Source: Bryum argenteum (lineage: Eukaryota; Streptophyta; Bryopsida; Bryales; Bryaceae). From it: a DNA stretch of 64,000 nucleotides. The position numbers and the translations under genes were made by a program. The stretch spans positions 6,931,409 to 6,995,408 of the forward strand of contig CM073328.1 of assembly GCA_037043015.1 (NCBI GenBank). The letters are read 5' to 3'. Numbering within the stretch: position 1 is the stretch's first letter; each line of letters opens with the position of its first letter. Of this stretch, positions 14,795 to 64,000 are shown one piece after another. The notes beneath the pieces were generated by a model, which was not told the DNA's origin, did no database searches, and saw only the letters and a program-made list of their open reading frames with translations.

Positions 14795-14881
14795 GCAAGG
14801 GTCAGAAATTGTGATGTTGTATCCACACGGTTATTCGGTCAGGGATAACTGTTTTGGCATTTCTCATCATCATTCCCCTGC
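14795..14881 (-). ncRNA. box C/D snoRNA candidate, family 1 copy a
   Basis: Read on the minus strand, the RNA opens with GCAGGGG, then a C box ATGATGA (+ strand TCATCAT at 14864-14873), an internal CTGA (D'), and a D box CTGA (+ strand TCAG at 14802-14805) followed at once by CCCTTGC. The two ends pair over seven positions, the terminal stem expected of a C/D snoRNA. The guide before D' contains CAGTTATCC, complementary to the conserved GGATAACTG of 25S rRNA beside the peptidyl-transferase centre. An identical core recurs at 15939-16025. The role, 2'-O-methylation guidance in the nucleolus, is inferred. Confidence 0.7.
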
Positions 14882-15938: not shown

Positions 15939-16025
15939 GCAAGGGTCAGAAATTGTGATGTTGTATCCACACGGTTATTCGGTCAGGGATAACTGTTTTG
16001 GCATTTCTCATCATCATTCCCCTGC
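15939..16025 (-). ncRNA. box C/D snoRNA candidate, family 1 copy b
   Basis: Same 87-nt structure as the copy at 14795-14881: GCAGGGG/CCCTTGC stem, C box ATGATGA, D' CTGA after the CAGTTATCC guide, D box CTGA. The two copies appear identical between their stems while the surrounding DNA has diverged, which suggests selection or recent conversion. Confidence 0.7.
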
Positions 16026-26650: not shown

Positions 26651-29600
26651 TCAAAATACAAAATACATATATCGCCATTTTTGTAAACATGCGGTATGGA
26701 GTTTGTGAAAAAGTTCACCACAATACCCATATTCCTCAATGTCCAACTCATCATCTCGCCTGTCGCGAGCATTAGTCACTTGAAACCACTCTGCAAAATG
26801 GCCATCCATCCAACTCGGTGCTACAGAGACTCCAAATAGCTCCAAAGAGTGTAGAGCCTCAAGATTTGGTAGGCCTTCAAGTTCGTATTCTTCATCAAAA
26901 TCATATTGATATGGAAGTATCTCAAAGATGTGTAATATTTTCAATTGAGGACACTCCAAACCTCTAAGATTTGTCAAACTTGGACAACATCTCAAAGTAA
27001 ATGAACGCAAGGATGTGCATGGCCTAAAATCAGGAAGTTCATAAAGACTATGTAGTCCATCCAAGCACACATGTTGTAGTGAATAATATATGCCTGAATA
27101 CTCATCTGCACTTGGAATCCCAGGAAGCAACATTGTTACCAAATTATCAAGCTCCTCAAGCTTCAAATGACGAAGACAATCAAGCCCCTTGAGATTTAGC
27201 ACTGTGATGTTGGAACAATCGGAAAGTTGTAACACCACAAGATTGGTCATATCTTGCATTGCCTTGCCCAATAAAAGTCGAGCATTTGCAAGTGTTATAT
27301 CATCAATTCGTAGCCTCACAAGATCATCCCATTTTCTATTTGATGATGAAGCATCACCTCTCAAATTGGTTCCCATAGTCTGAAATACACCCCTCACATT
27401 TCTTAACCCTTTCACATTGTGCTCGCTCACATACTCAGCAAACTCCTTGTACAGGTCGGGCACAGATGCATGATAACCATCCTCCTCGAAAGAGATCATG
27501 TCGGACTTCTTTAAATCCTCCATCTGCACCACACGACACTTTCCTCTATTAGTCATTTATCCCTTCAAAACCTATATTCAAATATTTATTGCACAATTCA
27601 TCATCCATAATTAACATCGAGCAAGGCATCAAATACCATCTTCACACTTTTCCTTCTAGATGCCACTACCACTAACAAAAAAGTAAGTATTAGTAGATCA
27701 CAAAGTTTTGGTACTTACTTCATTTCTTATTTTCGTTGTACTTTCATCATACAGTCTGGAATAAAACTCAGCCTCGGCATTAAATGTTTCATAACCACCT
27801 TCAATTGTGCCCCCATAATCGTACATGAAATATGCAATATCCAAGAACAATAGCTTCTCATTGAACTTTAAAGTGCTAAATTGCATATCCAAAATATCAA
27901 AGAGGCCATCTGAAGAACTCCACGCATCTCTCATTGAAACTATTCCCTTATTAAGATGATCTTTCCACACCAACATCTGCTTCCCCTTGGACCTGCCCAA
28001 CCGAGAAAAGAAGTCTGCTAATGCCGTCAATGCTAATGGGTGATATGATCCACCTTCCTCAGTTCCAAACCAACATTTCTGAATACAAATTTCAACAATC
28101 TTTTGTACTTCATTTGTCAAATTAAAAATTGACTTCATAGGATCAACATGTTTTAAGAAGAGGTCCTCCGCTTCTTTCTTGTGCAACTTAGGCATTGACA
28201 TGAAGAATTCAATATTTGGCAATAAATCCTCCAAAATTGCTTTGCTCTTTGCCATGATCATGATTTTACTCTCTGGATGAAAACCAACCATCAAGTATTT
28301 TCGAGCTTCCTTTTGTACATGGGCATCATTTGTGACATTATCCAATACTAGGAGTACCGGCTCCCGCCTCATGTGCAATCTCATTTGTGTCAATCCCTGC
28401 CATATAGAAGTGCATGTTTGAGTCTCGTTACAAATTAGTCTTGTTCTTCGATTACAATATCCATTCTCCACTTGATGATACAAAATAACCACAAAACTTC
28501 ACACAATACAATACTAGTTCATCTAATTCAATTGCAATACCTTTTCAATATCCATGCCAATACCATCCAACATAGTTCTTTCGAAGCCACACAACGCTTT
28601 TAAGATCTTCTCTTGCCGCCCTGCTCTTCGACCCTTACCCAACTCGACATGGCACACTCTACCTAAGAATTCTCCATAAAAGTAATCGCACATGGCTTTC
28701 GACAATGTCGTTTTTCCAACCCCGACCATTCCATATAATCCCAATACATTTGCTCCTATCTTGTTTTCTTCCACAAATAGGCTCGTTATATCCTGCAACC
28801 CAACACAAAGTGACTAATTTATTACTGAATCTCATGCGAGACATCTCAAGTTTATATTCTTCTATACTGAGTAGTTAGAACAACACTCTAATCTACATAT
28901 TCTCTACTTTAGAATCATAAATAATGATCTCATTTTGACATCCCTCACAGGCGTCCTTAAAGCCTTACAAAATACATCCATCCACAATTTAGAATCACTA
29001 TAACCATAAATAATTCCTACAATGCTCTACTTTTGATCCTAACCCTCATAAGCAAGAGATCAAATAGCCCTCCAACTCCTAGGAATCCATATTCACACAT
29101 AATGCTTACATAGATTACTTGATTCATGAGCACTTCAAAATCTAAAACCTTTGGCCATCTTCACATACCTTGCACATTCGATTGTAACCAACCATACTTT
29201 CACTGCTCCCATATAACAAGTCTGGTGGCGACAACTCAAAAATGCTTGAAACCACAAGCTTTCTGTACACCACCTCCTTCTTCATTGCATCTTTGTCAAA
29301 TCTCAAACCATTTGACTTGCACAAGGCTTTCACAGTTGCACTCCACTTTGTCACATCAATCCTTTCGTCCTTGCTTGCATGTTGTTTCCATATAGGCATC
29401 CAACGATCCTCATCTTTTACGTCCTCAATTGATAACTTGAAGAACAATGGAAACATGTGCAACTTGTGTCCTCCACGTTGTTGTTGAGCAGAATAAAACT
29501 CACCCAACTCCAACATTGGCCACTTAGAAGACAAAAACTCTTCAGACAACACTATCACTGCTACATGACATGCACGAGCTGCCTCTATTATGAGAGGTGC

Positions 29601-30533
29601 GAAGTCCTCTCCTTTCGGCAAACTATGGTGTCTCTGATCAAAAAACGGGAAGAAATATCCATAACGTTCAAGATCCACACACAATTGCTCCACAAAATCC
29701 TTCTGAGCTCCTGAGTGACTCAGAAATATCTTTTGCTTGGCTCCATCCAACTTGAACAAGCTGCAAAATACGGTAATGCATAAGTTTGCCAATGACCTGA
29801 ACACCTCAAACCATCGTGATAATCTGGTCAAACCTACATTTATTGAGAGATAATGATCAGCACTGTAAACTGACAAAGGCGATTAAGACTTCATAGACAC
29901 AGTTTACCTCTTCTGCTGTGAGCTTCCGGAAGAATCACCACTTGTTGCTCCCATGGGCTGGCATGAGAATAGAAGGGATTGCAATTCCTGTTTATTTGTC
30001 AAAAACATGAAATCACCACAAATATGGTACCAAGGGCGTAAAGTACACTTAATTATTCTGCCAGAAACCAGCTTAAAATGAAATCATTTATATTTCAGAA
30101 TCCACTTCAAAGGCAGAATAGGAAAATGAACCTACTTTCCCTCTAGGCTTAATCCACTAGAAGACTCAAGAAGATTGAACTTTTTTGCACAACAAAAAGT
30201 TGCATGTATACTGCATTGCGGTACCTACCCAAATCTGAAGAACGTCTGACAAACTTGGAAATAAAACAAGCCAGAATTGACTGAGAAGATCATGTTTACT
30301 TTCTGAAATTTCGACCATATTATAATGCTCAGAAGTCGGTACTCGTGTGGATTAAAGTAGGGAAAGGAATTAGCAAAGGATGTGAAACGTACTTCATTTG
30401 CAAGCTGCATGGGGCCATCATTGGTCCATACTGCAGAATCAGAAACATCACCATTGCTTACATTCTCCATCCGAATTCCATCCTCGTCATGCTCTGCACC
30501 ATGATTGACCATATCATCACGAGAATCAAACAT
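26651..30533 (-). CDS. TIR-NB-ARC-LRR immune receptor (TNL), six exons
   Basis: Exons 30393-30533, 29908-29987, 29169-29760, 28541-28792, 27719-28396 and 26651-27523 join in frame at GT-AG sites into 871 residues with no interruption. The ATG at 30533 follows an in-frame stop; another in-frame ATG is at 29954. The TIR domain (about residues 80-215, from KQKIFLSHSGAQKDFVEQL) keeps the Glu of the WPMLEL segment, equivalent to the catalytic NADase Glu of plant TIRs. NB-ARC has the P-loop GMVGVGKTT (292-300) and kinase-2 VLLVLDNV (369-376); GLPLAL is HPLAL and MHD reads VPD. About five to seven loose leucine-rich repeats follow from residue 620. Such receptors sense pathogen effectors and trigger immune cell death. 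The 58-residue acidic N-terminal extension before the TIR is unusual. A further non-coding 5' exon ending near 30660 is possible. Confidence 0.85.
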
Positions 30534-32715: not shown

Positions 32716-35700
32716 CCTCCCCTCGCTCAGTTACGTGCCTCAAGCTGAGCGTCAGAATTAGGTTAAACATGTCGAATCCTTAATTTAGGCCGTTGGAGGA
32801 GAAATATATCGAATTTGTTGAAACTTTGACAATCAGGCAGATTGTTTTGCTTGTATTGTGGGTCATAGGCCGCTGGCTCCAACGATGTGCAGACCGGGTA
32901 GTGAAGTTTATCGGGCACTGCTTCTTGGAGACGTTGACACAGAAGTAGACAGATAGAGCAAGAAGGGAACCGGCTCGCGTGATCGCAGCGCAGCTCGAGC
33001 ACCCTCGCAGCACGCACGCTAATTCTCCTGGTGAGACGGAGAGGGAATTTGAGGAGTCGCCAGATTTTAGCAATTGCTTGTTGCCTACAGACGAGATAAC
33101 TATGGATGAGGATTTACCACGTCTCACGTGTCTTCCTCTCGGGTGCGAGCCTCGGTTTAGAACCTGGGCGGACATATAAAAGTAGAATCCTTTGTAGAGT
33201 TGTTATACCATTGTGGACAGTTGTCCAACTCCAAGGCTTCAGCCAGATGCAATATAAAGCTTCATTTCTTAGCACTTGTTGCAAAGTCAGTCCTGCTTGT
33301 TGTCTTGAATTGATCCAATGTAGACAAGGCCTAGTTTGCTCCTTAGGATTTCGAATGTTGTCTTTCCAGTTGCATTGGTGAGGATGTCCGCTGCCTGTTC
33401 CGTAGTAGGCACATATTCGAGCTTAATTTCTCCAGAAGCAACTTTCTCGCGGATAAAATGATGCCGCACTTCGATATGCTTTGTCCTACCGTAGAAAATC
33501 GGGTTGTGTGCAAGATTCAAGCAACCCTGATTATCACCGAGAATTTTTGTGGGACAGTGATTGTCAAGTATGCGGATTTCATTGAGCAGCCGCCTTAGCC
33601 ATACGGCTTCCTTCGCCCCCTCGGTAATCGCCATATATTCACTCTCAGTCGACGAGAGAGCAACAGTCGGTTGTTTCCGGCTACACCAGGTGACGGGAGT
33701 TCCTCCGAGGTAGAACACGAAGCTAGTAGTGGAGCGTCGATCATGGGCATCTGCGGCCCAATCTGCATCCGTGAAACCTAACAGGTCATCATTCTCCCCT
33801 TTCCGGTACAGTAGGGCCAAATCTGTTGTGCCTTGCAGGTACCTGAACAGATGCTTAACGGCTTGGGCATGAGGCGCTTGTGGATGAGCCATGAATCAAC
33901 TGAGAACACTTACAGCGTACCCAATGTCAGGGCGTGTATGAGTCAGAAAGATTAATTTACCAACCATTTTCTGATAGAGGCTTGAGTCGGCAGCTTCTGC
34001 TTGCATGTCAGGAACGAGATGCACCTTTTCCATCATCGGTGTGGCGGCTAGCTTGCAGATATCAAGGCCAAATTTATGTAAAGTGGCTTTGACGTACTGG
34101 CGCTGGTATACGAGGATTCTTGCAGGGCAGGAAATAAACTCCAAACCGAGAGAGTAGGTAAGAGGGCCCAAGTCGGACATATCAAAGGCCTGCTGAATCT
34201 CCGAGCGAAGCAAGGCGACATGAGAAGAGTTGTTGCCCGTGATATAGACGTCGTCGACGTAGAGCAATAGTAAGGTAAGTAAGCTGCCTTCAATGTGAAA
34301 GTAGAGATTCGTGTCAGCTGTTGACTTGTGAAGACCTTGGCTAGCCAGATAGGAATCCATACGTGAGTACCAAGCACGAGGTGCTTGCTTTAGTCCGTAC
34401 AGAGCTTTGTTAAGCTTGCAGACTAATTGCGAGTTGGGAGAGGAAAAACCTGGCGGGGGAGTGACATAAATATCCTCGTCAATTGTGCCGTTTAGGAACG
34501 CTGTCTTCACGTCCAAGTGATAGACATCCCAGCCGTGGTGGCCAGCAAGTGCGATGACAGTTCGAAGTGTATTCCACTTGACTACCGGCGCGAAGGTCTC
34601 CTTGAAATCTAGTCCTCCGCGTTGCTGGAAACCGCGAGCAACCAGTCGTGCCTTTAGCTTGTCCACTGTCCCATCAGAATTTGTTTTAACTCTGAAGACC
34701 CATTTCGTGGATATCGCAGTTCGATGCGGTGGCAGAGGCATCATATCCCAAGTGCCGTTCTTGTGTATCGATTCCAGCTCGGAATGCATAGCAGCACGCC
34801 AGCGAGGGTGAAGCAGAGCAGCATCCACTGAGTCAGGGAGGCGGATGGAGGAGTCGACAGCAGTTAGGTGAAGATGGTAATCCTGCAATCGACTAGGTAG
34901 CCGAGGAGGACGCCCACTCCGAGTGGTGACCAGGAATGGGTCTGTTGTGCCAGAAATGGAGCTAGAGCTGATCATGGGCTCACCAGATGTAGAGGCTGGA
35001 CTAGGTTGAAAGTCTGGAATGTCTGGCAGGTGGCGACGGTGATACACACGCAGTGGAAGGACGGCTTGAGCGCCAGAGGTATTCACGGACACTTGATGTA
35101 CGCTCTGAGGTGGTGGAAGCAAGTTGTGAAGTGGAGGAGGAGATGAGGGGAGGAGATGAAGTGGAATCGTCAGCTGCAAAGACAGGAGTGGTTGGCGGGC
35201 CAACTTCAGGAACAGAAGAAAAGTCCCAGTCAGCTGGGGGAAACTCTGAGGCAATAAGCTAGTGGCGGCCTTGTACGGGAAACACTGCTTATCAAAACGA
35301 ACATCTGTAGACACCAAAATGCGACGAGTGGCCTTGTGATATTTTCTATAGCCTCTGGAATTCACATCGTACCCGACAAATATGCATTCATATGCCCTGG
35401 AAGCCAATTTCTCTAGCTTTGGGGTTGTATTGAGCACGTAGCTCTTGCACCCAAAAATGCGCAGATGATCAACTTGAGGAAGGTGGCTTGTGAATCGTTG
35501 ATAAGGAGTGATACCGCTGTTAGCCCGGGTTGAAGTTCTATTGATCAAGTAGTTTGTGGCTGCAACTTCCTCTGTCCAGAGATGCGGTGGAGTCATAGAT
35601 GCAAATGCAATGCACCGGGCTTTGTCGAGTAGCGTCCGGTTCTTCCTTTCAGCCACACCGTTTTGGTGTGGGGTGTACGTTTGAGTCAACTGGCGCAAAA

Positions 35701-36791
35701 TGCCTGATTCCTCGCAGAAGTGCACAAAGTCGTGGGAGATGTACTCACCACCGTTGTCAGAGCGAATGGCCTTGATGCGGTGAAGACCTTGCAGTTCTAT
35801 CATTGCTTTGAAATTTTGGAATTTTGTTAGAGTCTCAGACTTTCTTTTGAGGAAGAATGTCCACGTAAACCTGCTAAAATCGTCTATAATGGTTAGAATG
35901 TACTGGGTCCCAGACAGGGATTTCGGCAGGGGTCCACAGATGTCGCTGTGAAGGAGGGCGAGTGGTACAGAAGTGCGGCTCGATCCGGCGCCGGTGATGG
36001 GTACTTGTCCTCCAGTGCTCCGTGGTTGTTGAGGGCGCGACCATGGAACGCGTGATTGTTTGCCGGCACAGCACGCATCGCAGAAGGCCATATGAGGGCG
36101 CAAGGCAGGTAGACCTTGAGTCTTGTTGGTGGTTGCCATATGTGACAACACCTTGAGACTCGCATGGCAGAATCGAAAGTGCCAAAGAGAGGTAAGTGCA
36201 GCCTTGGAGTCGATGTTGAGCTCCGACAGATTTGAGTTGCTGGTGAGCTCCACGGCATTGACAGATGAGTTGGGCGGGCGGAACTTGTAAAGTCCGTTCT
36301 TCCTATCCCTTTTTCCTACTGAGATGATTTGATGGTAATCGGGTGAAGGAAGATTTCGGAAAATCCAGACGTTTTGTGAATCGAAAAGCACCTTAGGTTT
36401 GTCTCTCCTATCAGTGATCGATCCTACTGATAGTAGATTCTTTGTGATGACAGGCACGTATAAAACTTCATCAAACTGTATTGCTCGAGATGGAGTAGGG
36501 AAATCGATTGTCCCTTTGCCTGCTACATTCAGAAGTTTGCCACCGGCAGTGCTGACTTGTGAGCGAGAGCCTCCTTCTACATCTTTAAGCAGATCCTTTC
36601 GACCAGTGACGTGCTTTGAGGCACCACTATCTAGGTACCAATCGTTACTTTGTGAGCTATCAGCTAAGTTCAGCTCTGTAAGATTTACAGCTAGGTTGGT
36701 TTGAGTTTCGACAAACTCGTCTTCGCTGCTACTGTCGAAGTTGTTGACCAAGTTAACGGTGGTCTTCTCATTCTATGGCGACTTCCGTGCT

Positions 36792-37057
36792 TTAACCCTA
36801 AAGATCCAAGAAAGCCGAAATGGCTTTTTGGGGTTTCCGCAGGAAAAAAGTCATCCAACTTTGACCATTATAATCTCAAAATTGGAAAAAAATTAACGGT
36901 TCAAATTTGACATATGAGTATAGGGTCAAGTTCACTTCAAGATCCTACGGTTGGATCTTCTAATTAATGCTTAGATTGAGTTTTTTCGGGCCTGAAGTAG
37001 AAGAGGGTCCTTTGTGATAATTTAGACAATTTCGTCTCAAGGATCTTTAGGGGTTAA
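36792..37057. repeat. TTAACCC-type MITE nested in the copia element (266 bp)
   Basis: It begins TTAACCCTAAAGATCC and ends GGATCTTTAGGGGTTAA, inverted termini of about 17 bp, lying between the gag-like and pol-like parts of the copia element. It shares the TTAACCCCTAAA terminus with the elements at 11131, 43333 and 46689 but differs inside. It must be younger than the copia insertion. Confidence 0.75.
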
Positions 37058-38014
37058 CGAAGGCGGCCAAGACGGGACAATGTTTCATCTAATGGTCGTC
37101 AGCTCCACAGTAGTTACATTCGCCGTGCTTCTTCTCTTTTGGGCGACTGTTGTTGCCTCCGAAACTTGGGTGACAGCTACTGGTGTTGTTACCTCCTGAG
37201 ATGTTGTTGTTGTGGCCTCCCGTGTTTTGTTGACGTTGATCGCCCCCTCCAGAGTTGGACTTTCGGCTCGCTGAGTTCTTCTTGCCTGTCTTGAAGTACA
37301 GGGCCTCATGCTTGCTCTTCCAGAGCTCCCGACGCACTTCGTCCTCAAGCAAAATGACATTCAACTCAGCAGGTGTAGGGAGTACCTGTTGATACATCAA
37401 TGTGTTCACTAGACTTATATAGTCTGCAGGTGGGAGTGCCATGAGGATGTATTCTACTAGCTTGGGGTCGGCGATCTTCTCTCCTATGCCAGCGAAGTCG
37501 TTCACTAGCTCTTTGACTTTTTGCAAGAAGCTGGACATCGTTTCTTCAGCGTCCATCTTCAGGTTCGCCAGTCGCCGGCGAAGCATGATCTTGCGGCTAT
37601 GGGTTCGGCTAGCGTAGAGATCACGTAAGGCTTTCCACATCTCGTCCGGTTCTGTGAGGTGGATTATATGCGGAATCACATGGTCCTTGACTGAGAGAGC
37701 AATGGTTGTAACAGCTCGACTCTTGACCACCTGCAGCGCGTCAATGTAAGCCTGCAGTGTCGGTGCAATTGTGCCCGGTGGAGGATCCACGACCCTCCAG
37801 GAGTCATCCCTGCTGAGGATGTTACGAACTTTGAAGGACCAAATAGGGTAGTTTGGATGACCCTCAAGTTTCGATGTATCACTCACTACAGTAATCTCCT
37901 TAGATGCCATGCTGCTACGGATCTGTTGCCACCTTCTAAAGCTCGAATTCTTGCTAGAGGTTACAAGGACTTAGACAGCTTTCTGTTTCTTGGAACCTTG
38001 CTGTGATACCATGT

Positions 38015-51900: not shown

Positions 51901-53028
51901 TACAGTACCCACCAACAAGTTTACGTTCAGAGCAAGAAGAGATAACATCCCTTCAACTTTCAAATGATCACCATGTTTGCGAAATCTATCCAAATTGCAA
52001 ATTATGAAGTATGAAAAAAAGGTAGTGCATTTTTCTTTACCAATACATGAAAAACTTCCAAAAATGTATAAATGTATTTTATAACTTTGGTATCTTTTAA
52101 CTTACTTTTCAGTATCTACCTTCGACTATTATAAAGACGGGGAAACCACGGGTGTGAGCGTTGAGCGGTGAGCGGTAAAGTTTGAGCGGTAAGAAAAAAA
52201 AAATGTAAAAGTTAATGGCCCTATTACCATGGAATGGGTTGTGCTGAAATTGTGAAATGGTTATTTTTAGGCGTAAACGTACCCAATACCGTGGATATAG
52301 GTCCTTTATCCATATATTTTCATGGTATTGAGGTTATATAATATTTCATAAATTATCCACATTTGCAAGTTTTAATAAGAGTTAATTAAATTAGGGCTGA
52401 AATCATCACGTGTAACCCATACAAATCAAATCATATACTGGCCCTGTTTATTCATAAATACAAAGCTTTAATCAAAGTTTGAGAGGGCCCATTAGGACAA
52501 CCATAAAATCACTTTAATGATTTTAAAATTTGGATAATAATTAGGGCTGACGTCATCAATTACCTATAAAACTTGTCAGAATTATATGTAAATGAATCCG
52601 GATATATAATCTGAAGTTCATAACTAGAAGTCGTCTTTCCGTCCCTCTTTGTAAGGTGTACGCAAAGACATTCACGTGGCATTGTAGCGGTCCGAGTTCG
52701 ATTCTTCTTGGGCTCGTTTGAGCGTTGCAATGCGTTGTAAAGCAGCTATCCTGAGCTATACAAATACAGAACTAGAGTCTCTACCAACATTGGCTAGATT
52801 CAATCACTCCAATTGAAAATAAAGAAACGTTTTGAAAATTTTTGTTTGCATTGAGTTCAAAACTTAAACATTTAAATATTAATTAAGAATGCATTAAACG
52901 TTCATGATTAATAGGTAAACGTCATATATAGATATAAAAACGTATAATAAAACCACAATTATGACCAATGCCATAGGGCAACTATATGACCCTACGTAGT
53001 CCAAACCAAACCAAGAAAATAAAAACAC
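51901..53028. other. 3' flank of the ParB/methyltransferase-like gene
   Basis: No gene recognised. Short GAGCGGT repeats occur at 52160-52190. A tRNA B-box-like GAGTTCGATTC at about 52696 lacks a convincing partner. Confidence 0.35.
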
Positions 53029-56000
53029 CTACGATGCTGATGGTGAACGACCATTAAAGTGTTGGTCACACTGATCAGCCTCATCGTCTATAAACGCAAG
53101 CACTCTCGAGCTAAAGCGTCGACGTCTACTAGTTTCGGATAAGACGGGAGAAGGGGCAGCGACAAATTCCTGAGCTATCCGCTCCGCATAAGATGGTAGG
53201 GTGAAGGTTTGCGGAGGACTGCTGTAGAGACTTCCGTCGCCAATCAAGCGTCGATTGGAACCTGCGATCCTAAAAGTACAGAAAAAGTCAATACCAATAA
53301 ATTATTAGCAAGTGGAGGTCACAGTAGAAGGGGGGGAAAGTAAGAGATGAGTACACACAAAATGTTGGGCGTTGCTTTTTCTGAAGCGGTTCAGAAGTGT
53401 CACTGTCGTAGTCATAAACTGGAACCGAATCGCCGCTTTCTTCCTCAAAAGCGGTACCATCCACGTATGCTGATAAAAGACCGTCAAATATATCTTCATC
53501 AGCTTCAACAGCAATGAGATGACGGTTCGATCGCGCGCAGGCAATCACGGAAGCACCTACATACCAGCAACCAACATCAGAACTACAATAATGAATAAGT
53601 TGAATGAGAGTTGGTATTAGCAACAACAAACCTGTACTAGGGCTCCAGTCAAAGACGATTCCCCGCTCGTCTGTGAGAGAATCAATAAAACATTGGATGA
53701 AGGAGGGGTCCTTCTCTCGTGAGCCACGCCAAGGAGTACCATCTTCCCTCTTACGAATGGAGTCATTGCTCGCAAAATTGAAAACATGGTCCTCCTCGTC
53801 GGGAAGAATCGGCACACCTGCGTACTCTTTCGCAACTTGTCGTATGGAGAATCTGGTTGCAAAAGACTTCCGAACAAAGACCTTTATGTGGAAGTTGTGA
53901 GTCTGCAAAATTCAATACATGAGAGTGATTTAAACAAGCGTTGTAAATAATCATGAATGATGACTTGAATGCCGAATGAAGAGCATACCGTTTTCACGTG
54001 GGGGTTCGTGGAGGCCATTGGCATGGGATTATATCCCCACCAATCTCGAACCATTCGGAATTCGAAAGCCTTTGACTCGGCATCTAGAGCTTTCTCAACT
54101 CGACGATCTTTGGGATGCATAACAAGTATCGCACCCTCGTCTGTCAAGTTGTAGAAAGCAAAAAAGAATACACTCTCGAAGTAGCTTTTCTCTCGCTTGT
54201 TCCATGAAGGGATTTCGACCGGCGAAACGTCAGGCACGGGTAAGTTCTCAGGAACGTCTGCGTAGATGAGATCAATGCCGGAATGCGGGTGTTTCGTGCC
54301 CATCTCCTTACACGGGTACTTCCTATCCTTGCCAATCTTTACAAATCACAAACACATATACATTTTGTAAATAATATGTTTCAAACAGAATTTAAGAAAT
54401 TAAAGAATGTAATAAGAGATTTAAGACATAATACCTTTCTGATGTGGTTAATGATGTCTATGACTTGCGCGTCCCAATCTTTTGTTTCATGAGCTGCCTT
54501 TTGAACAGAAGCTCTGATATCCCCTTTTTCCAAGTACATTGGAAGAGAAATAGTAATCTCAGAGGACAAAAACTCTCTAACATGCTTCGGTTCAAGAAAT
54601 GGGAGTGAAGCGAACTTCTTTCCGGAGCTGTGGTCGACAGTAAAAGATTGAGGAGGAGAGCCCGCATTCGTAAGAGCGCCTGCAGAAATCTGAGTCAATG
54701 GTCGACCGCGTCTACCCGCATTGTTGGTCGCTCCATCTGAAGCCTGAGTCAAATCAGCTTCTTCTGGACCTCGAACGTCATGATGGAGCGGACCAATTTC
54801 ATCGGGTTCTTGATCAAGATCAACGACAGGCTCCGCAGCGGCGTTGCGTCGCTTTCTGTTTGCTCTGGTTCTAGGTAGTGCAACCGGTGAAGGAGGTTCG
54901 GAAGGTGAGATAGGTGCGCTTGGTAAAATGGAGACGTCTTCGTCGTCATCGTCATCGATCTCCATAACTGCATTGCCGGGTGCGTTTGAAGTGAGGTTCC
55001 GAAGCAGATGTCTCTCTTTTTTGTGCACAAAGTTATCGTTGCACTCTAGGAACCAACCACCGGTCAACAACTGTGAGTTGGAAAACCGTCTCTGTTGGGC
55101 TTCAGAGAAGATGCTGGATGGATCATTTGAGACGGCTACGTCCTCGAGCTCAGCTGGAATGGACCAGGAGGCCAAGGCTCCTTTGCGAACAAGCTCCTGT
55201 TTCAAGTACCTACAATGAAGAAAACATAGTACAATGACAAATTTCAGTATATCATACTGATATTGGTAATCTGCAAAATCAGTAGGAAATTGAATAGCTA
55301 GTTGAATACATACCGGAATAAGAGCCGTTTCGTAGTAAGTTTGCCACCACTAAACTTCTCAATATCGGATCCTTTGATGAACCTGGGGCTGGCATTCTGA
55401 GCGAGGTAGTTCTCGAATGCCTTTTCCCATAAAAGCAATCTCCATTTCTCAACATACGCGGATGGCTTTAGTACCGCATCCGTCCACTGAATGGAAGTTT
55501 TGCTATCCTCCAGAAGTTGTTGTATTCCACTTTCGAGGAATTGTTGTAACTGCAATGTAGTAGAACCCGTTAGGAAATGTAGGTATTGAATGACGGGAGT
55601 ACATTAATGATAAAGTTCAGTACAATATACCTGAGTCCAAAGCGAAGCGCGATGCAGAAAGGCAAGCAATGTTTTATCCTTCATAGGGCGGTCTATTGGG
55701 AAGTGGACAGATCGACGTACATCATCTGGCGCATTCCACCATTGGAGCCACTTTCCTTTAAAATCGAAGTGGACATTGGTGGTGGCTACCATGTGCAACC
55801 GTTCAATAGTCATGTCGGGCTTCAGGTTGTGGCTGTAGTGAGAATAGATCTGCACATAGAACAAATTGAATTGATTAATTTCGGTATTAATCAATAAGAG
55901 TATTAAGTCTCCTTAGAAAATAAGTAGACATAATTATTTACCTCTTTTGGGAATACTTTCCCAAGTTGGTTGTTGGCCACAGCAACCATCTTGTTGAACT

Positions 56001-57331
56001 GTTTGTCACGAATCGATTTGATTTCGGCTTTGATGGCGTGATCCATGGCACTCCAAACTCCTGGCCCTGTTTGCTTTTCTTTAGGGGTAGAGGCATAGTA
56101 AGTAGCCTCGGCAAGATCCGATGCTTTCGCTAACCTCCTCTACATGGCACACAAGTAGTAGTAAGAATTTGCAATGTATAGAGTACAAGATAAAAGTGTT
56201 TAGTACGTATTTAGAAGTCTTACCGCGTACAAGAACTTGACGAAGATGTCCACTGTGACAGGATACCATGTTTCTTTCTTTGCTTTAGCGTTTTTGCAAA
56301 TTTGATAATCCTCCGGCGTAATGAGATCCTTGAAATCTTCAAGTTTCAACTTACGGAACTTTCGCATGCGTTGCAGCTTCGCACATAAACTGTCTTCAAC
56401 GTGGTCATGTTCGGTTGACCTATACATTGGAAAGGTAGACCTATATATGAGAATACGTCGAGATTATAAAAAATTGAAAGAAAAATAATTTAAAAAATGT
56501 TTGAAGTACTTACCAATTTATGTCGTTCATGGCGTCTAGGAGAAGATTGCTTTGACCGCGAGCATCCAGTACGATGCAATCAACTGAGATGTACCATGAT
56601 GGATCCTTCTGGTGGTACCGCTCTATATGACGCATCCATGCAGTCAAACGGTGATTTCCTTCGTATACGTAGAAGTATTGACCACTCAGATGATGAAGAT
56701 CAGGATCCGACATCAAAGTCTTCTCGAACTCTTCATTTGCATCTCTCCATAGAGGATTCTCCTACACACTGTCTCCTGCATCAACCTTTTTCTCTCTTCC
56801 TTTTCTGTCGAATGGCGATACATACATGACCCGATCTCCTTCTCGATAACCTTTGTTGAACTCGTTCTCTAGTTTCCGAACGTCTTGTTCGGAGATAGGC
56901 CGAACCTTGGGGTAACACACCAAACGGCACAATGGAATTAGCATACGAGACTTCTTCACAGGTTTGAAACGAAACATGTTTATGATTGCTATAGAATCAC
57001 TTTTGTGAATCATTCGCATCTCATTGGCACTCCAATCAGGATCTTTGTTTTGGAGATGGGGCGGCATGTGCACGATGCCGACGTTGACACTCCCTGGCAA
57101 AGAAGACTCTTCGTCATCCGAATGGGACTCCTTTCCATCGTGATCTTGCAAACCCTCTGGAGAAGGTTCGGTTTGGATAGGAGAATCACGTGGAACTGGA
57201 GAAGACATGTGTTCCACAATTTCTTGTGATACATGTGTGCTATCATCTTCTTCAGGGAGTGGACGTGACTGAAAGTTTTGAATGGATATGTCCTCTTCCT
57301 CTTGAAGAATTTGAAGCTCGGATATTCTCAT
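53029..57331 (-). CDS. ParB-like plus amino-methyltransferase-like protein, ten exons
   Basis: Exons 56514-57331, 56224-56419, 55942-56139, 55631-55849, 55314-55549, 54435-55209, 53989-54336, 53632-53902, 53355-53556 and 53029-53269 join at GT-AG sites; the sum is exactly 1168 codons with the stop. Residues about 150-270 look like a ParB/sulfiredoxin fold (IPLCRL, PKVRPISEQDVRKLENEF, then YEGNHRLTAW with EGNHR at 223-227). A middle region (about 560-790) is acidic and Pro-rich with a basic patch (RANRKRRN), perhaps nuclear. The C-terminal part has GIDLIYADVPE (834-844) in place of DPPY and, later, VFDWSPSTG with HLIAVEAD (1013-1040), the motif IV then I order of beta-class N4/N6 amino-methyltransferases. 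The catalytic tetrad is altered, so activity is doubtful. One in-frame TAG lies in exon 1 before EGNHR; it is either a nonsense change or inside an unusual 60-base intron. A second copy starts at 63910. Confidence 0.65.
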
Positions 57332-57471
57332 CTGACAAATCAATAAACAAAATACAACAGGGCACTAAAAACATAAGAATGAATCAAAAAAGTAATAAAT
57401 TATTAATCCAAATAGAAAGATGTTCACAATGTAGAGAAATGTTATCAGTATCAAGTAATGATGGCAGAAAA

Positions 57472-57795
57472 CTATTTGGAATTCATCTTGGCTGCAAGTC
57501 GCGGAGAACGTCTAGGTGCAAGTCTAGCTAATGCTTTCTCTTCGATACGTCTAGCTTTGGCATCATTCTTTTTAATTTGCATGTTAACAGCTCGTGCAAA
57601 CCGATCAAAGTCATCACGTGAAGTGTGACTGACAGGTGTGGCGAGAGGCGGAGTTTCGGGAACCGAGGACAATGGTATTACTAAACGACGGGACTCTACT
57701 ACAGCCATCACATGATCTTTCAAAGCCGAAAAATCAGTGTCGGCATCAGATTCCTCCTCCTTTGGAATTGCCTTAACCTTACATGGGTGCTGCAT
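57472..57795 (-). CDS. small basic protein or leading exon of the ParB/methyltransferase-like gene
   Basis: An ATG-started frame of 107 residues lies 140 bases upstream of the ParB-like exon in the same orientation. It has an acidic start (KEEESDADTDF), a helix-like middle and a basic tail (RRIEEKALARLAPRRSPRLA) like a nuclear-localisation or DNA-contact segment. A good acceptor (GAATGCAG) overlaps its start, so it may be an internal exon, but I found no donor that avoids its own stop. No family recognised. Confidence 0.4.
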   Translation of the reverse strand: MQHPCKVKAIPKEEESDADTDFSALKDHVMAVVESRRLVIPLSSVPETPPLATPVSHTSRDDFDRFARAVNMQIKKNDAKARRIEEKALARLAPRRSPRLAAKMNSK

Positions 57796-57899: not shown

Positions 57900-60780
57900 G
57901 TTCCAAAGCGGGTTTAAGAAAAAAGCACGTGTCAAATAAATCCTCCTAACATGGAATAAAATCCACGGGTCTCAAAATGGTTAGGACGTCAAAAAAGCAA
58001 CCAAAACAAGCTGACAAATATCCTTAAAATTGACGAGAAGGGGCACCAATCCAGCGAGTCGAGGGTTCATCGTCAGCAAAAAAAGTTGCGGCACAGCAAG
58101 CCTCCCCTAGCGAGCACCATAAAAAAAAAACAACCAAATGTATAACAAACACATCCTTCAAATGACAAGAAGGGCCACCAATTCAGCCATTCGGGGATAC
58201 ATTCTGGGCGCGGTCCCGAAGCTCACAGTGAACTACCGGACTCTCCCCAACAGCAGTTGAACTGCGGCGCCGCAAGACTCCCCTCACCACTATCAGAATA
58301 ATAAAACAACCAAATCTATATCAAAGAGAAATTTAAATATTGGTGGAAAGGGCATCAAACCAGCCAGTCTGGGGAACATCAGGGGCACTATCCCGAAGGT
58401 CGCAGCCAGAGCCCTCGTCTTCAGTCCCGAAGCTGATCATTGAATACCCAACTCAACCAAAAAGATGTTAAACTGCGGCACCGCAAGTCTCCCCTCGCGA
58501 GTGCAAGAAAATAAAACAAGACCAAATCAACAACGAACACATCCATCAAATCGACGATAAGGAGCAGCAATCCAGCCATTCGGGGATACATTCAAGGCTC
58601 TGTCCCGAAGCTCGCGGTGAGAGCTCTCACAAGCATCCGAACTTTGATCAAAGAGTACCAACAGCAGTTGAACTGCGGCACCGCAAGTCTCCCCTCGCCA
58701 GTAGATCACAAAAGTAACATCCAAATCAACATCTTACACATCCATCAACATGACGATAAGGGGCAGCAAACCAGCCATTCGGGGATTCATCCTTGGCCAT
58801 GTCCCGATGCTTGTAGCGAGAGCTCTCACCCGCGTCAGCAATGTCATCACAGATCATCCCACAGCAGATAAACTGCGGCACAACATGTCTCCTTTCGTGA
58901 GTGGCAGACCAACAAAAACGACAAATTCTACAAAAAGCAATTCCTCACAACGTGATGGGAGAGGCACCGAACCGCCATTCTCGGAATCACAGGGGGCATT
59001 GTCCCGATGCACGCAGCCAGAGCCCACGCCTTGGGTCCCCGAGCTGATCACAGGTCACCAACCTCATCCCATCAGCTGTTAAACTGCGGCACCGCAAGTC
59101 TCCCATCGCAAGCAGATGATCAAAAAACGAAACCAAATCAAGATCGAACAAAACCTTCAATATGACGATAAGCACCTCCAATCCAGCCATTCGGGGATAC
59201 ATTCAAGGCTCTGTCCCGAAGCACGCAGTGAGAGAACTCACAGAGCGTCCGAGAGCGTTCGAATTTGATTAAAAAGTACCCGACTCTCCCCAATAACAGT
59301 TAACCTGCGGCACCGCAAGTCTCCCCCTCACCAGTAGCAGAAAAAAAAGAAGCAAATGTAGAACTAACACATCATTCACAATGACGTGTACGGCCACCAT
59401 GGATGCCATTCGGGGATACATGCTGGGCCCAGAGTGAGCTCTCACAAACGTCCGAAGTTTGATCATAGAGTGCCCGATTCTCCCCAACAGCAGTTGAACT
59501 GCGGCACCGCAGGTCTCCACTCGCCAGTAGCAGGATCAAAAACAACCAAATCAAAATGAACAAATGACGACATCGAGCACCAATCCAGCCATTCGGGGTC
59601 TCATCATGGGCCCTGTCCCGAAGCTCGTAGCGTGAGCTCTCACCCCGCATCATTACAGACAATCCAAGAGCAGTTGAAATGCGGCACATCATGTCTCCCC
59701 TCGTGAGTGGCAGACCAACAAAAACGACCAATTCTACAGAACGCAATTCCTCACAACGTGATGGGAGGGGCACCAAACCGGCCATTCTCGGAATCACAGG
59801 GGCCACTGTCCCGATGCACGCAGCCAGAGCCCACGCCTTGGGTCCCGAGCTTATCACAGGTCACCAACCTCATCCCATCAGCTGTTAAACTGCGGCACCG
59901 CAAGTCTCCCATCGCAAGCAGATGATCAAAAAACGAAACCAAATCAAGATCGAACAAAACCTTCAATATGACGATAAGCACCTCCAATCCAGCCAATGGA
60001 AGATATATTCAAGGCTCTGTCCCGAAGTTCGCACTGAGGGCTCTCAGAAAGCGTCCGAAGATTGATCAGAAAGTACCAGACTCTCACAACCAGCAGTTGA
60101 ACTGCGGCACCGCAAGACTCCCCTCACCACTAGCAGATAAAAAAACAACCAAATCCATATCAAAATGAACCTCAAAAGTTTATAGGAAGGGCACCAATCC
60201 AGCCAGTCTTTGGAACATCGGGGGCACTGTCCCGAAGCCCGCATCCAGAGCCGTCGCCTTGGGTGCCCCAGCTGATCAAGGATTACCCGCCATCCCGACA
60301 GCTCTTAAACTGCGGCACCGCAAGTCCCCATCGCGAGCACAAGATAAAAACCACAACCAAATCGACAACGACCACATCCTTCAAAATGACGAGCAGGAGC
60401 TCCAATCCAGCCATTCGGGGATACATTCAAGGCTCTGTCCCGAAACTCGCAGTGAGAGCTCTCACAAAATGTCCGACGTTTGATCTCAGAGTACCCGACT
60501 CTCCTCAACAGCAGTTGAACTGCGGCACCGCAAGTCTCCCCTCGCTAGTAGAAGACCAAAAAATGCAATTACGAGTGCAAAATACAATTCCTCCAAAATG
60601 ACGAGAACGGCACCAAAACAGACAGTGTGGGATTCATCAGGGGCAATGTCCTGAAGCTCGCAGCCCTAGCCCACACGCAGGATCCGCAGGTTGATCTCAC
60701 TTTGCGACTCAAGCCAACTGGAGTTAAACTGCGGCACCGCTACTCTCCCCTCCCGAAGATCACATCGAAAACCCGGAATG
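57900..60780 (+). repeat. tandem array, about 14 units of ~206 bp
   Basis: A core AACTGCGGCACCGCAAGTCT recurs at about 58087, 58258, 58468, 58667, 58868, 59078, 59300, 59493, 59674, 59885, 60096, 60305, 60513 and 60724 (spacing 171-222, mostly 199-211). Each unit also holds CCAGCCATTCGGGGATACAT and CTGTCCCGAAGCTCGCAG. A four-unit segment is itself repeated: 58868-59290 matches 59674-60100 closely (GTGGCAGACCAACAAAAACG), a higher-order period of about 806 bp. The array sits just upstream of the ParB/methyltransferase-like gene. No coding function. Confidence 0.9.
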
Positions 60781-62001
60781 CGACCTCATGCAAACCTCTG
60801 TCGTGAGTTACCAAACCGAGAAGACCAAAAAAATAGCCCAATTTTACTTATACAACCTAGCAAAATGGTCCACCTTCCGGGTAACGTTCCACGGAGATTC
60901 TGTGAAGTGTGAAAGCAAGATAAAGACCGGTTTGGCTACCGGTTTGACGCTACAACGACCAACCCAACCTGAGTACACCGGGTCAGCAGGCTCGGTGGTT
61001 TAGACCTCTTTGTTTCCTTGACCCAAGAACCCCAGGGTGACCTATTTGGTGCTGATCCGGTTTCCCCTTTCAGCTCAAATGGTACCCCATCCGGTTAGGA
61101 CCTAGTAACCAGGGGTGATTTAGTTTAACCTCCGTAAATCCTCGGAGGGATCCTTCCTATTAGTTTGGAAAAGCGGAATTTCGCTCTCTACCGGATGTTC
61201 CAGGTGACCGGAGTTTCACCTTTGTACATTCTATTATCCTCACTCCTCCTGGAGTTAGTCCCTTATTACAACTGCCACTTTCCGGGTTCCATCCCAAACA
61301 GTGGGTCACACAGCTGACAATCCGGTTCTCTCCTCTTACTTAATCCAAGAAGGGGGGTTTTTACTTGCCACTCGGAGTTCAGTGAGTGGCATCCCACCAC
61401 TAGACCTGTGAAGTCCCCACTAACGGATCCGGGAAGGGTTTGTCAATAACCAAGGTCACAGACACCTCCGGGTGGAGCTCCTCAACCGAATATCCCGTCC
61501 GGGAGGTTGACGGTTAGAGCGGCTTTACTCGCCAGCTGCGACGTCTCTGCCCACTCCGGATGATGTAGCAATTCTCACTAACTGACTAAACACGCTCTCG
61601 AGACTAGTCGGGTTCTCTCACTCGGACTTCTCCCTGACCGTACTACCCCTTCAACACTCCTTCACCGAGTGCTAAAATGGCGACTACCGAATCAAGAAGG
61701 GACTCTCTCGTGCCCACCCGGGGTCGGACCTTACTTACATGCACACAACCCCGGAATCCCCGGACTCACAACAAATACAACAAGGGTACGAGTTTATGGG
61801 GACGCAAGTTCAACCTTTACTCACAATTGTGGAAATCACGAGAGAAGACCCGAAGTGCTCCGCAGAGCCTTCGCCCGCTAAATCATGGGGGGTTCGGATT
61901 TCCGGAAACCCTATCGATCCGAATTCCCGGGCCTCCGAGATTCCGGGTGAGTGGCCAAAAAGGCATCTACTATTTCTAACTACTTCTAACCTAACTAATT
62001 A
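60781..62001. other. non-coding stretch between array and GC-rich block
   Basis: Higher GC than the rest of the window. It shows short recurring CCGG-containing motifs (ACCGGTTTG twice near 60928-60945). An ATG-started plus frame (61677-61979, about 100 residues, Arg-rich) has no family resemblance. This may be a promoter or terminal region of the adjacent GC-rich block, but no terminal repeats were found. Confidence 0.3.
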
Positions 62002-63850
62002 CTAATTAATATCTTCTTCCGGCGGCGTGGGGGGCTCGAGGGGAGTGCGGCGGCGGGGTATTCCTCCCGGGAGTGCCTTTCCACTCGCGGGGAGGGGAAT
62101 CTGCCTCTTTGATCGACCCGAGTGTCGATGTAAAACCTCGGGTTTTACTGTGTCCTCCGGCTCTTCCACCTGTCCCGGAGTGCCTTCAACTTCGATGGAG
62201 GGGGCACGGGTTGGACTTCCACTTCTTCCCGAGGGACCACGGGCTCCTCCTGCTTTGTTCTCGAGGGGCCACGAGTTCACCCCCGCTGGGTCTGTTCGCC
62301 CGGATCTCCACCTCGTTGACTTGGGCCTCCGGGTGAGGTACTACCTCCTCAACTCCGCTCGGGAGTCCTGCCCCTTCTCCCGTGATACCGTCCACCGGGT
62401 TCTCATCCGGTTGTTGAGAGGGGTTAACCTCTCCTTCCACCACCTCTTCCACCTCGGAGGGACCGGGTAGCCCTACTTCACTCGGGATGTCACCTCCCTG
62501 AGGGGGAGTTACATCTCGATCTTCCTCCCTGTCCTCCGAAACGCCACCATCAACTGGGATTCCCTGCTCCTCCGAAACGGGCAGGGACACCTCCTCGATC
62601 TCCATGGGCACCGGCCCCTCCGTGGGCACCTCTGGGGGTGCGAGCACCTCCTCTTCCGAAAGGGCTTCCTTCATCTCCACGTGGGGGAGGGCCCCCAGCA
62701 ACCTTCCCGTGAGGGTTCGGAACTCCTTGAGGCACTGGTTGATACCGGTTGCGTGCCTCCTGAGCAACTCCAGGGATTGGGGAGATTCGCTGATCCCAAT
62801 CCGGGCATCATAGAAGGCCGCCTTCGTCAACGCCAAGATCCGATTGCAACACCTTGAGGATGGAGTGCAACACCGTCTGTCGATGTTGTTCGCGACTCCG
62901 GAGCGACCTCCTGCTCCTGCACAATCCTCCTGAGGGCTTCCACCTCCGGATGTGCCTCCGTGTCCGAGGGGTCCGATATGCACTGAACTCCCACGGATGC
63001 ATTCTCCTTCGGCCGGGCCTTCAGCACCAGCTCTACCTTCTCCCTCCTTAGCCGGGCTGTCTCTCGCTGCATCTCCTCGGCTAACTCCGGATACCTCTCC
63101 ACGTTGGGGGTCTGGAAGACCCGCTCGAGTCGCGCCAGGGAGGTGAACAACTGTTCATTCTCCCGATCTACCTCCTCCATGGCTAACCGGATGGGGTGGA
63201 GGATACCCTCGCTGGGTATCCGGTAGTAGGGACGGGGGAGCACTGGGGTGGTGTTTCCCGTCCCGGGGGTCACAACCCCCCTGTGGGACGACTCCGGGCC
63301 GCCAGCGATTGTCTTTGGGGTGGCGGGGTGGGTCGCTTCTCGCTGCTCCGGTAACTCCGGCCGGGGAGGTGTGGTCTCTCCGGAGTGTCTTCTCCTCCGT
63401 GATAATCGGCCTTCTCTTCACTTGGGGTGGCTCTCCGGGATCGGTTCTTCTACCGGAGTAGGGGCCGGGTCCTGCATTAGTACGGGATCCGGACTTGGGG
63501 CCTGCTCCTCCTCGATGGCCCTCGGTTGTACTACCGGACTCGCTGACCTCTTCCTCTTCTTGGCCTTGCGCTTCAGGTTGGGCACTCTCCCTCCTGGGGG
63601 TCTCTCTCCGGGTGGAGGCACCTCCGCATTGGCCCCCGCTGCAGCCACCTCCTCGTCTGGGCCTCCCTGTTCTACCGGGGGAGGGAGTCCGACGGGAGAA
63701 CGTCTCCTCCCAAAACCCGTCGTGTCCTTTCTCCTCACCCCTCGGGATGGTCTTGCCTGTCGAGGTGGGGCTTCCTCTTCTTCCTCTTCCTCGTCATCTT
63801 CGTCCTGGTCGTCCTCCTCTGCGGACTGGTCTCCATTTATAATCTTCTTA
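62002..63850 (-). other. GC-rich coding-like block, charged coiled-coil protein, frame not continuous
   Basis: On the minus strand consecutive open stretches encode, in order: an acidic run and a basic patch (KRKAKKRKR) near 63.55-63.83 kb, a Glu/Arg-rich helical segment near 62.85-63.25 kb (RLAMEEVDRENEQLFTSLAR), then a Pro/Glu/Gly-rich tail to 62.0 kb. The order resembles a structural or gag-like protein of a mobile element, but there is no zinc knuckle, protease or polymerase in view, so the family is unknown. The reading frame is interrupted. Base composition is strikingly GC-rich against its neighbours, which suggests a separate origin. The plus-strand frame at 63248-63868 is its antisense shadow. 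Confidence 0.45.
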
Positions 63851-63909
63851 ATTACGTTTTGTAATTAAAAATCTATAAGCCACTATCTAATTATTGCATT
63901 GTACTTCAG

Positions 63910-64000
63910 ATTGGAAAAGACCGAAAGTACCCGTGTTCGGCGATGGAGTATGATCCCAAGCATCCAGGGATTGATCTCATTTTTGTTGACGCTCCCGAGA
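63910..64000 (+). CDS. second ParB/methyltransferase-like gene, one partial exon
   Basis: After an acceptor (GTACTTCAG, ending 63909) the plus strand reads IGKDRKYPC and then GIDLIFVDAPE, cut off by the window end. Of the first 30 residues 19 match the exon starting at 54336 in the other copy, and the exon begins at the same residue and phase, so the two genes share an ancestral intron. The motif IV equivalent is VDAPE here and ADVPE there; both lack the DPPY/W aromatic residue. Upstream exons are not recognisable on the plus strand; the GC-rich block occupies the place where they would be. The two copies point away from each other. Confidence 0.7.
   Translation, partial: MGKDRKYPCSAMEYDPKHPGIDLIFVDAPE

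Follow-up and report, generated by a model that had tools for sequence, protein, structure and literature searches.

The window analysed here is a stretch of 64,000 nucleotides from Bryum argenteum (GenBank assembly GCA_037043015.1, contig CM073328.1, positions 6,931,409 to 6,995,408 of the forward strand). On its minus strand it holds a gene, here called gene A, whose predicted product joins a ParB-like part to a methyltransferase-like part, and upstream of that gene lies a tandem array (Table 1). An earlier note made from the letters of the stretch, hereafter the original prediction, had described gene A as a spliced gene and had offered two origins for it: a bacterial or viral acquisition turned into a host gene, or a mobile gene family. 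Comparison with other copies in the genome makes it nearly certain that gene A belongs, as an accessory gene, to a large DNA transposon with several genes, of which a gene B and an apparent gene C are described below.

Gene A and the transposon that carries it

Gene A comprises ten exons and nine introns, with 3,504 nucleotides of coding sequence (1,168 codons including the stop) in consistent phases. The ten GT-AG exons and whole number of codons of the original prediction were upheld, in model, sites and phases, when the window was aligned with 19 further copies, but two boundaries had to be corrected: intron 1 ends at 56420 instead of 56441, and the donor of intron 9 is at 53354. The nine corrected introns have a GT donor in 18–20 of the 20 rows and an AG acceptor in 17–20, and the gene model is real. 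The reading frame is interrupted in the window by a TAG at codon 190, which that prediction had overlooked. Since 16 of the 17 other alignable copies read TGG there and one (L033) reads TCG, all at the same length, the window copy is damaged. A 24-nucleotide intron hiding the stop at 56762 was ruled out by the same 16 TGG copies of equal length. Frames were counted in 18 rows, window included; L028 and L038, which lack part of the gene, were left out, and the 5'-truncated L024 and L031 were retained. A complete ATG-to-stop frame of 1,158–1,168 amino acids is present in eight of these rows (L022, L023, L025, L027, L029, L032, L033 and L036).

The eight open copies (28 pairs) give a median ratio of nonsynonymous to synonymous divergence (dN/dS) of 0.175, and gene A is under purifying selection. 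In 80-codon windows the ratio is 0.04–0.10 over codons 81–480 and 0.03–0.06 over codons 801–1040, and it rises to 0.42 at codons 641–720 and 0.70 in the first 80 codons. On this evidence protein A stayed functional during the multiplication of the element. Synonymous divergence among the open copies is 0.54–0.99 over codons 81–640 and 0.15–0.27 beyond codon 720, and exchange between lineages, by recombination or conversion of the 3' part of gene A, is suggested.

The methyltransferase part of gene A (272 amino acids) has 291 exon-level matches in the 258.8-Mb genome at an expectation value (E) of up to 0.001, the listed ones being 55–95% identical. Twenty ten-kilobase stretches around gene A copies were compared, and most share a block of approximately 5.7 kb. 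The block terminates at ...CGCTCACACCGGTGGTTTCCCC, or at a word that differs little from it; this end was recognised in 18 of the 20 stretches, with unrelated flanking sequence beyond. At up to two mismatches, the right-tip word read inward has 253 matches in the genome, including the one at 52139 in the window, and the left tip GGACGTTGCTACCGTGTGAGCG has 339. The terminal inverted repeats, GGACGTTGCTACC-GTGTGAGCGTTGAGCGG on the left and GGGGAAACCACCGGTGTGAGCGTTGAGCGG on the right, are imperfect, and GAGCGGT-type subterminal repeats occur at both element ends. An element without inverted repeats (the right-tip word is not self-pairing) was rejected, as the left tip merely differs in its outer part. 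Pairing was counted with the listed exact tips of C1, C2 and the initial 5.1 Mb of C3: 41 of 73 right tips have a correctly ordered left tip within 60 kb, compared with a random mean of 3.1 and with two in the wrong order; 32 of these 41 pairs are spaced by 10.0–19.2 kb, and the others by up to 49 kb. Twelve elements had both flanks read: nine have exact target duplications (eight of 10 bp and one of 11 bp), two have one mismatch in 10, and one (L021) has none. Three left tips in the same orientation, approximately 600 bp apart (G000:C2:27579934, 27580546 and 27581171), perhaps represent an end that was locally duplicated in tandem.

Upstream of gene A, copies L030, L042 and L043 contain a long tandem array, exon-like stretches of gene C and a divergently transcribed gene B. 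This linkage was measured with 150 listed of the 291 gene A matches (121 after merging) and 150 scored gene B matches, all of the latter being 87–100% identical to the query. A divergent gene B lies within 30 kb upstream of 43 of the 121 gene A copies, at 8.7–16.2 kb in 39 of them, as against a mean of 1.3 and a maximum of six under random placement (500 trials) and seven in other arrangements. The termini, the target duplications, the linkage to gene B and the hundreds of matches together argue for a DNA transposon and not a single host gene. The transposon is approximately 10–19 kb long and exists in hundreds of copies, with imperfect terminal inverted repeats and 10-bp target duplications. 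The mobile gene family of the original prediction is thereby borne out; the other origin, in so far as it meant an ordinary host gene, is unsupported, for the sequence is a high-copy repeat, which had been missed.

Gene B is transposase-like, apparently of DDE/SWIM type. Its start resembles a zinc finger, a DDE-like stretch follows, and the C-terminus looks like a SWIM finger; in copy L044 it is read as 738 amino acids plus a 487-amino-acid frame. We take its D, its second D with CYFH and its NLAES to be the DDE-like motif, and the series D, D, CxxH, E presumably gives it a MULE-like look. The joined protein of L044 matched no Pfam family by hmmscan, the SWIM model included. Two gene B copies (C1:30858542 and C1:34833628) have, approximately 2 kb downstream, a match to the SWIM model PF04434 that passes its cut-off (E 0.15 and 0.08); the match in L043 stays under it (E 0.44). 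A genome search with the MULE transposase model PF10551 (E up to 1) gave 72 matches, none of them seen at a listed gene B place, and the KDZ transposase model PF18758 gave no match, which is no evidence of absence because the control genomes were also without one.

The window copy retains the right end, the broken gene A, the apparent terminal exon of gene C and the array. The apparent first exons of gene C, located beyond the array in L030 and L027, are absent from the window, and tblastn (E up to 0.001) against the window plus the 4 kb beyond it located neither these exons nor gene B; the left part of the copy has therefore been lost. In L030 the array looks to lie within the apparent last intron of gene C, as judged from the splicing inferred there. 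An AG stands immediately 5' of the gene A ATG in 16 of the 20 aligned rows (57331–57333 in the window), and the gene C stretch preceding the array in L030 apparently ends in the same phase, so that alternative splicing might produce a fusion of C to A. Accessory genes are already known from other transposons, and what is unusual here is the accessory protein; searches of the open-licence literature in PubMed Central brought up no comparable plant transposon.

The two parts of protein A

The second part of protein A is related, as sequence comparison supports, to the beta-class amino-methyltransferases. The whole protein gave no Pfam match, and a direct match of the methyltransferase-like part to the Pfam methyltransferase PF01555 (E 0.0064) is under the cut-off. 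With phage DNA methyltransferases, tblastn gave E 1e-3 over 82% of the length, at 22–23% identity in the rows listed, and profile comparison (hhalign) with seven phage enzymes gave 95% probability and E 3.1e-8, but the aligned part is confined to 58 columns about motif I. The genome also has a second family, represented by L078: it aligns with gene A over 183 columns (hhalign E 3.7e-17), passes PF01555 (E 1.1e-7) and has a full-domain match to PHROGs 67 (E 1.6e-10). The beta-class domain of the original prediction is thus backed both by the phage enzymes and by the L078 family; the proposed check against PF01555 succeeded for that relative and fell short for gene A itself.

The catalytic motif IV of amino-methyltransferases is usually [DNS]PP[YFW], and the first of the glycines usual in their motif I is missing from gene A. 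At motif IV, 17 of 18 gene A rows read D[VI]PE and one reads NVPE, four divergent copies read D[VA]PE, and none has an aromatic residue; in the alignment with L078, DTPF stands opposite DVPE. Because the motif is D[VIA]PE and not DPP[YFW], ordinary catalysis by this part is doubtful, and standard catalysis has probably been lost. The L078 family could be a catalytically intact relative. Its representatives L078 and L079 (C4:20498100-20499500 and C4:20500600-20501800) form a second ParB-like plus methyltransferase-like family with DTPF and with close copies on C4 and C7.

The first part of protein A is likely to be ParB-like, by motif and architecture. Its core, YEGNHR[LV]TAW, was found in 15 of 18 rows and not located in the remaining three, and its comparison with the ParB-like partition protein PHROGs 1033 gave E 0.018 and 0.0078. 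The same upstream part occurs in the L078 family, at 38% identity over 198 residues and with GNHR kept. At least eight of the 32 PF01555 places have a ParB-like place 2.7–3.2 kb upstream on the same strand, a lower bound because 39 of the ParB-like places listed, chosen by eye, entered the count; such pairing of ParB-like and methyltransferase-like parts is therefore old in this genome. Across the genome the ParB model PF02195 has a single match (E 1.49), which is not at a listed gene A place. The structure prediction called for at the outset was run on single sequences and speaks for neither outcome: the model of the ParB-like part has a mean predicted local distance difference test score (pLDDT) of 34 and a second model one of 44, both uninformative. 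A search of solved structures gave nothing relevant.

Fusions of ParB-like and DNA methylase parts exist in phages, for example in Streptococcus phage Javan3 (QBX16953.1), where the ParB part was named by eye. They resemble gene A in the order of the parts and in the motif I region. However, the two phage proteins compared have 418 and 422 amino acids and DPPY, whereas protein A has 1,167 amino acids encoded in ten exons, approximately 500 of them between its parts, and D[VIA]PE. No phage match to the ParB-like part was found, and pattern-based scans of prokaryote genomes and viral contigs, whose reach extends to close relatives only, confirmed no relative. The domain content suggests a bacterial or viral origin of gene A, as had been proposed, but no donor was found and the phage methyltransferases share little identity with it.

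Arrays upstream of gene A

The near-palindrome TGCGGYACCGCA (12 bp) occurs at 12 places in the window, all within 58087–60741, that is, in 22 strand matches compared with 0.18 expected. The arrays just upstream of gene A in other copies have widely different units, with main periods from 118 to 467; Tandem Repeats Finder, applied to ten copies, detected no array in L023 and only short ones in L021. Array regions were defined as the untrimmed stretch upstream of gene A, in 16 of the 20 copies (L024, L028, L031 and L038 left out). Among the 16, the only BLAST alignments longer than 60 bases are those within the four close pairs and, at 71 and 73 bases, within two further pairs. The arrays are almost wholly different between copies, yet the near-palindromic 12-bp motif is kept in the main subfamily: at up to one mismatch, TGCGGYACCGCA is present at 4–20 places in each of the 12 main-subfamily regions, with shuffled means of 0.07 or less. 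In a set of nine array regions with a single member of each close pair, an 8-mer of the motif recurred in five, the maximum in 50 relabelled controls being two to three.

In the second subfamily, L032 has five places of TGCGGYACCGCA at up to two mismatches, and a weaker word like CACCACCTCGGYG was found in three of the four regions. Longer palindromes also occur. L023 and L027 have a perfect 22-bp palindrome, TAACCTGCGGTACCGCAGGTTA, from which L022 departs by a single base. Exact matches to the 18-bp core palindrome ACCTGCGGTACCGCAGGT occur at 42 places genome-wide and form five clusters, one each on C3, C4 and C6 and two on C10. Three of these clusters are the arrays of L023, L027 and L022, a fourth lies 4–5.5 kb upstream of C4:15901067, one of the listed gene A matches, and the fifth is 4.5–9 kb from a gene B copy (C10:4351797).

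Possible functions and other features of the window

According to PMC5735166 and PMC10398659, VANC proteins bind to arrays of tandem motifs that lie in non-coding parts of the elements encoding them, and these elements lose their methylation. The tandem repeats of VANDAL elements, intronic ones included, are stated in PMC5735166 to diverge fast while keeping short motifs, and VANC is given there as bearing DUF1985/DUF287. VANDAL, of the Mutator superfamily in Arabidopsis, and the present element are, on these accounts, both plant DNA transposons with transposase and accessory genes and rapidly changing tandem repeats that hold short motifs. They differ in that gene A has ParB-like and methyltransferase-like parts instead of DUF1985/DUF287, in the near-palindromic motif and 10-bp target duplications found here, and in that gene B has no PF10551 match. 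For Mutator-like elements, PMC6446971 mentions target duplications of 8–11 bp, terminal inverted repeats and a SWIM finger, the latter also given for the VANDAL transposase. The present element agrees in its 10-bp duplication and its inverted repeats, and perhaps in its SWIM-like finger, a feature frequent in such elements without being obligatory, but the MULE transposase model does not pick up its gene B.

The VANDAL analogy, together with the dimeric binder that a palindrome suggests, leads us to propose that a protein encoded by the element, most likely A or A together with C, would bind the palindromes and so mark the element's own copies. Protein A would be a ParB-like dimer with a methyltransferase fold probably devoid of standard catalysis, and that fold, given its motif IV, would probably serve for binding or recruitment. 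Binding would remove silencing, as the VANC proteins of Arabidopsis VANDAL elements do. We regard the self-targeted binding of arrays by A or C as a tentative reading that might well prove right, and anti-silencing as its outcome with somewhat less confidence. Taken as a whole, an accessory protein that targets its own element, possibly against silencing, is the best explanation that we can offer, tentative as it is. An extended form, in which a ParB-like/pseudo-methyltransferase of phage or bacterial ancestry recognises element-specific palindromic arrays in the manner of parS, array and binder changing together between subfamilies and forming a private address for escape from silencing, seems unlikely. 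Should the proposal be true, two plant transposon lineages, VANDAL and the present one, would have acquired accessory proteins aimed at fast-changing arrays of tandem motifs, and one of the two would employ a prokaryote-type ParB/methyltransferase pair. The element provides a DNA motif for testing, copies with an open and with a broken gene A for comparison, and a candidate route by which a large transposon evades silencing in a plant genome.

Several observations weigh against this proposal. Four of the 16 array regions, those of the second subfamily, are without TGCGGYACCGCA at up to one mismatch, and the CACCACCTCGGYG-like word also occurs in L022, a main-subfamily copy, so that a clean switch of motif is not shown. 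The 18-bp palindrome has 72 places when one mismatch is allowed, 30 of them inexact, and the position beside a listed gene A or gene B copy refers to the 42 exact ones. The motif could belong to protein B, to protein C or to a host factor, and the constraint on gene A could reflect transposition itself and not silencing. The resemblance to VANC is organisational, consisting in the arrangement of the arrays only. Finally, the assignment to ParB is not strong: hhalign against the ParB-like parts of two phages gave E 0.33 and 0.37, which is not significant, and Pfam has no match for this part. The ParB domain named in the original prediction is thus favoured by its core motif and by weak PHROGs matches, but neither by Pfam nor by profile comparison.

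Other roles may be considered for gene A. It might be a transposition factor that binds the array or the GAGCGGT repeats and aids transposase assembly or the pairing of ends, and its linkage to a transposase-like gene, the purifying selection and the subterminal repeats at both ends would suit such a role. However, the array in the window starts approximately 5.9 kb inside the right end and not at the end, and array units that have changed almost wholly between copies would be unusual for an end-binding enhancer; we consider this role rather unlikely, if less so than the parS-like form above. Less probable again is an active N6-adenine or N4-cytosine methyltransferase that modifies element DNA to protect or license it. 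The homology, the position of this region among the most constrained of the protein and the more canonical DTPF of the related family speak for it, against which stand a motif IV without an aromatic residue (D[VIA]PE, NVPE) and a motif I without the usual first glycine. Slightly more improbable still, in our judgement, is the idea that the ParB-like part acts as a nickase or nucleotidase on element DNA, the methyltransferase fold being a DNA-binding scaffold only: a ParB-methylase fusion of Bacillus cereus is credited in PMC5512222 with non-specific nicking, and gene A and the second family, though only 38% identical, have GNHR unchanged, but the profile comparison is not significant. That gene A belongs to a domesticated host family merely resembling a transposon gene is strongly disfavoured, since strong purifying selection would fit, whereas the sharply defined ends, the target duplications, the linked transposase-like gene, the hundreds of matches and the many broken copies would not.

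Table 1. Features of the transposon copy in the window and of its surroundings
Feature	Position	Strand	Remarks
Right terminus of the transposon	52139..52175	-	tip GGGGAAACCACGGGTGTGAGC (inward on +), then GAGCGGT-type subterminal repeats; element at higher coordinates
Gene A (ParB-like + methyltransferase-like)	53029..57331	-	conserved splice sites, open copies, dN/dS
Gene A, exons 1–5	57331-56514, 56419-56224, 56139-55942, 55849-55631, 55549-55314	-	
Gene A, exons 6–10	55209-54435, 54336-53989, 53902-53632, 53556-53355, 53269-53029	-	
Methyltransferase-like region of gene A	53359..54336	-	motif IV position ADVPE, motif I position DWSPSTG
ParB-like region of gene A	56537..56944	-	core YVYEGNHRLTAW; PHROGs matches, dN/dS 0.04–0.10 in codons 81–320
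In-frame TAG at codon 190	56762..56764	-	interrupts gene A in the window copy; copy alignment
Apparent terminal exon of gene C	57472..57789	-	stop seen by eye in aligning rows
Tandem array beside gene A	57990..60800	.	copies mostly 180–220 bp apart
Start of second, divergent methyltransferase exon copy	63901..64000	+	68% identical; runs past the window

Between the array and the second methyltransferase copy, the region 60800–63870, with open frames on the minus strand, is apparently another repeat; it is G+C-rich (0.60 in 62001–64000). Elsewhere in the window, open frames at 26651–29882 are presumably those of a TIR-type resistance gene with a leucine-rich part, and three long minus-strand frames at 33287–37970 are what we take to be a Ty1/copia-like retrotransposon. 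Two copies of the C/D-box snoRNA snoR38 (Rfam), which we assume to be a plant family and which would fit a plant host, are located on the minus strand at 14795–14881 and 15939–16025, approximately 1.1 kb apart.

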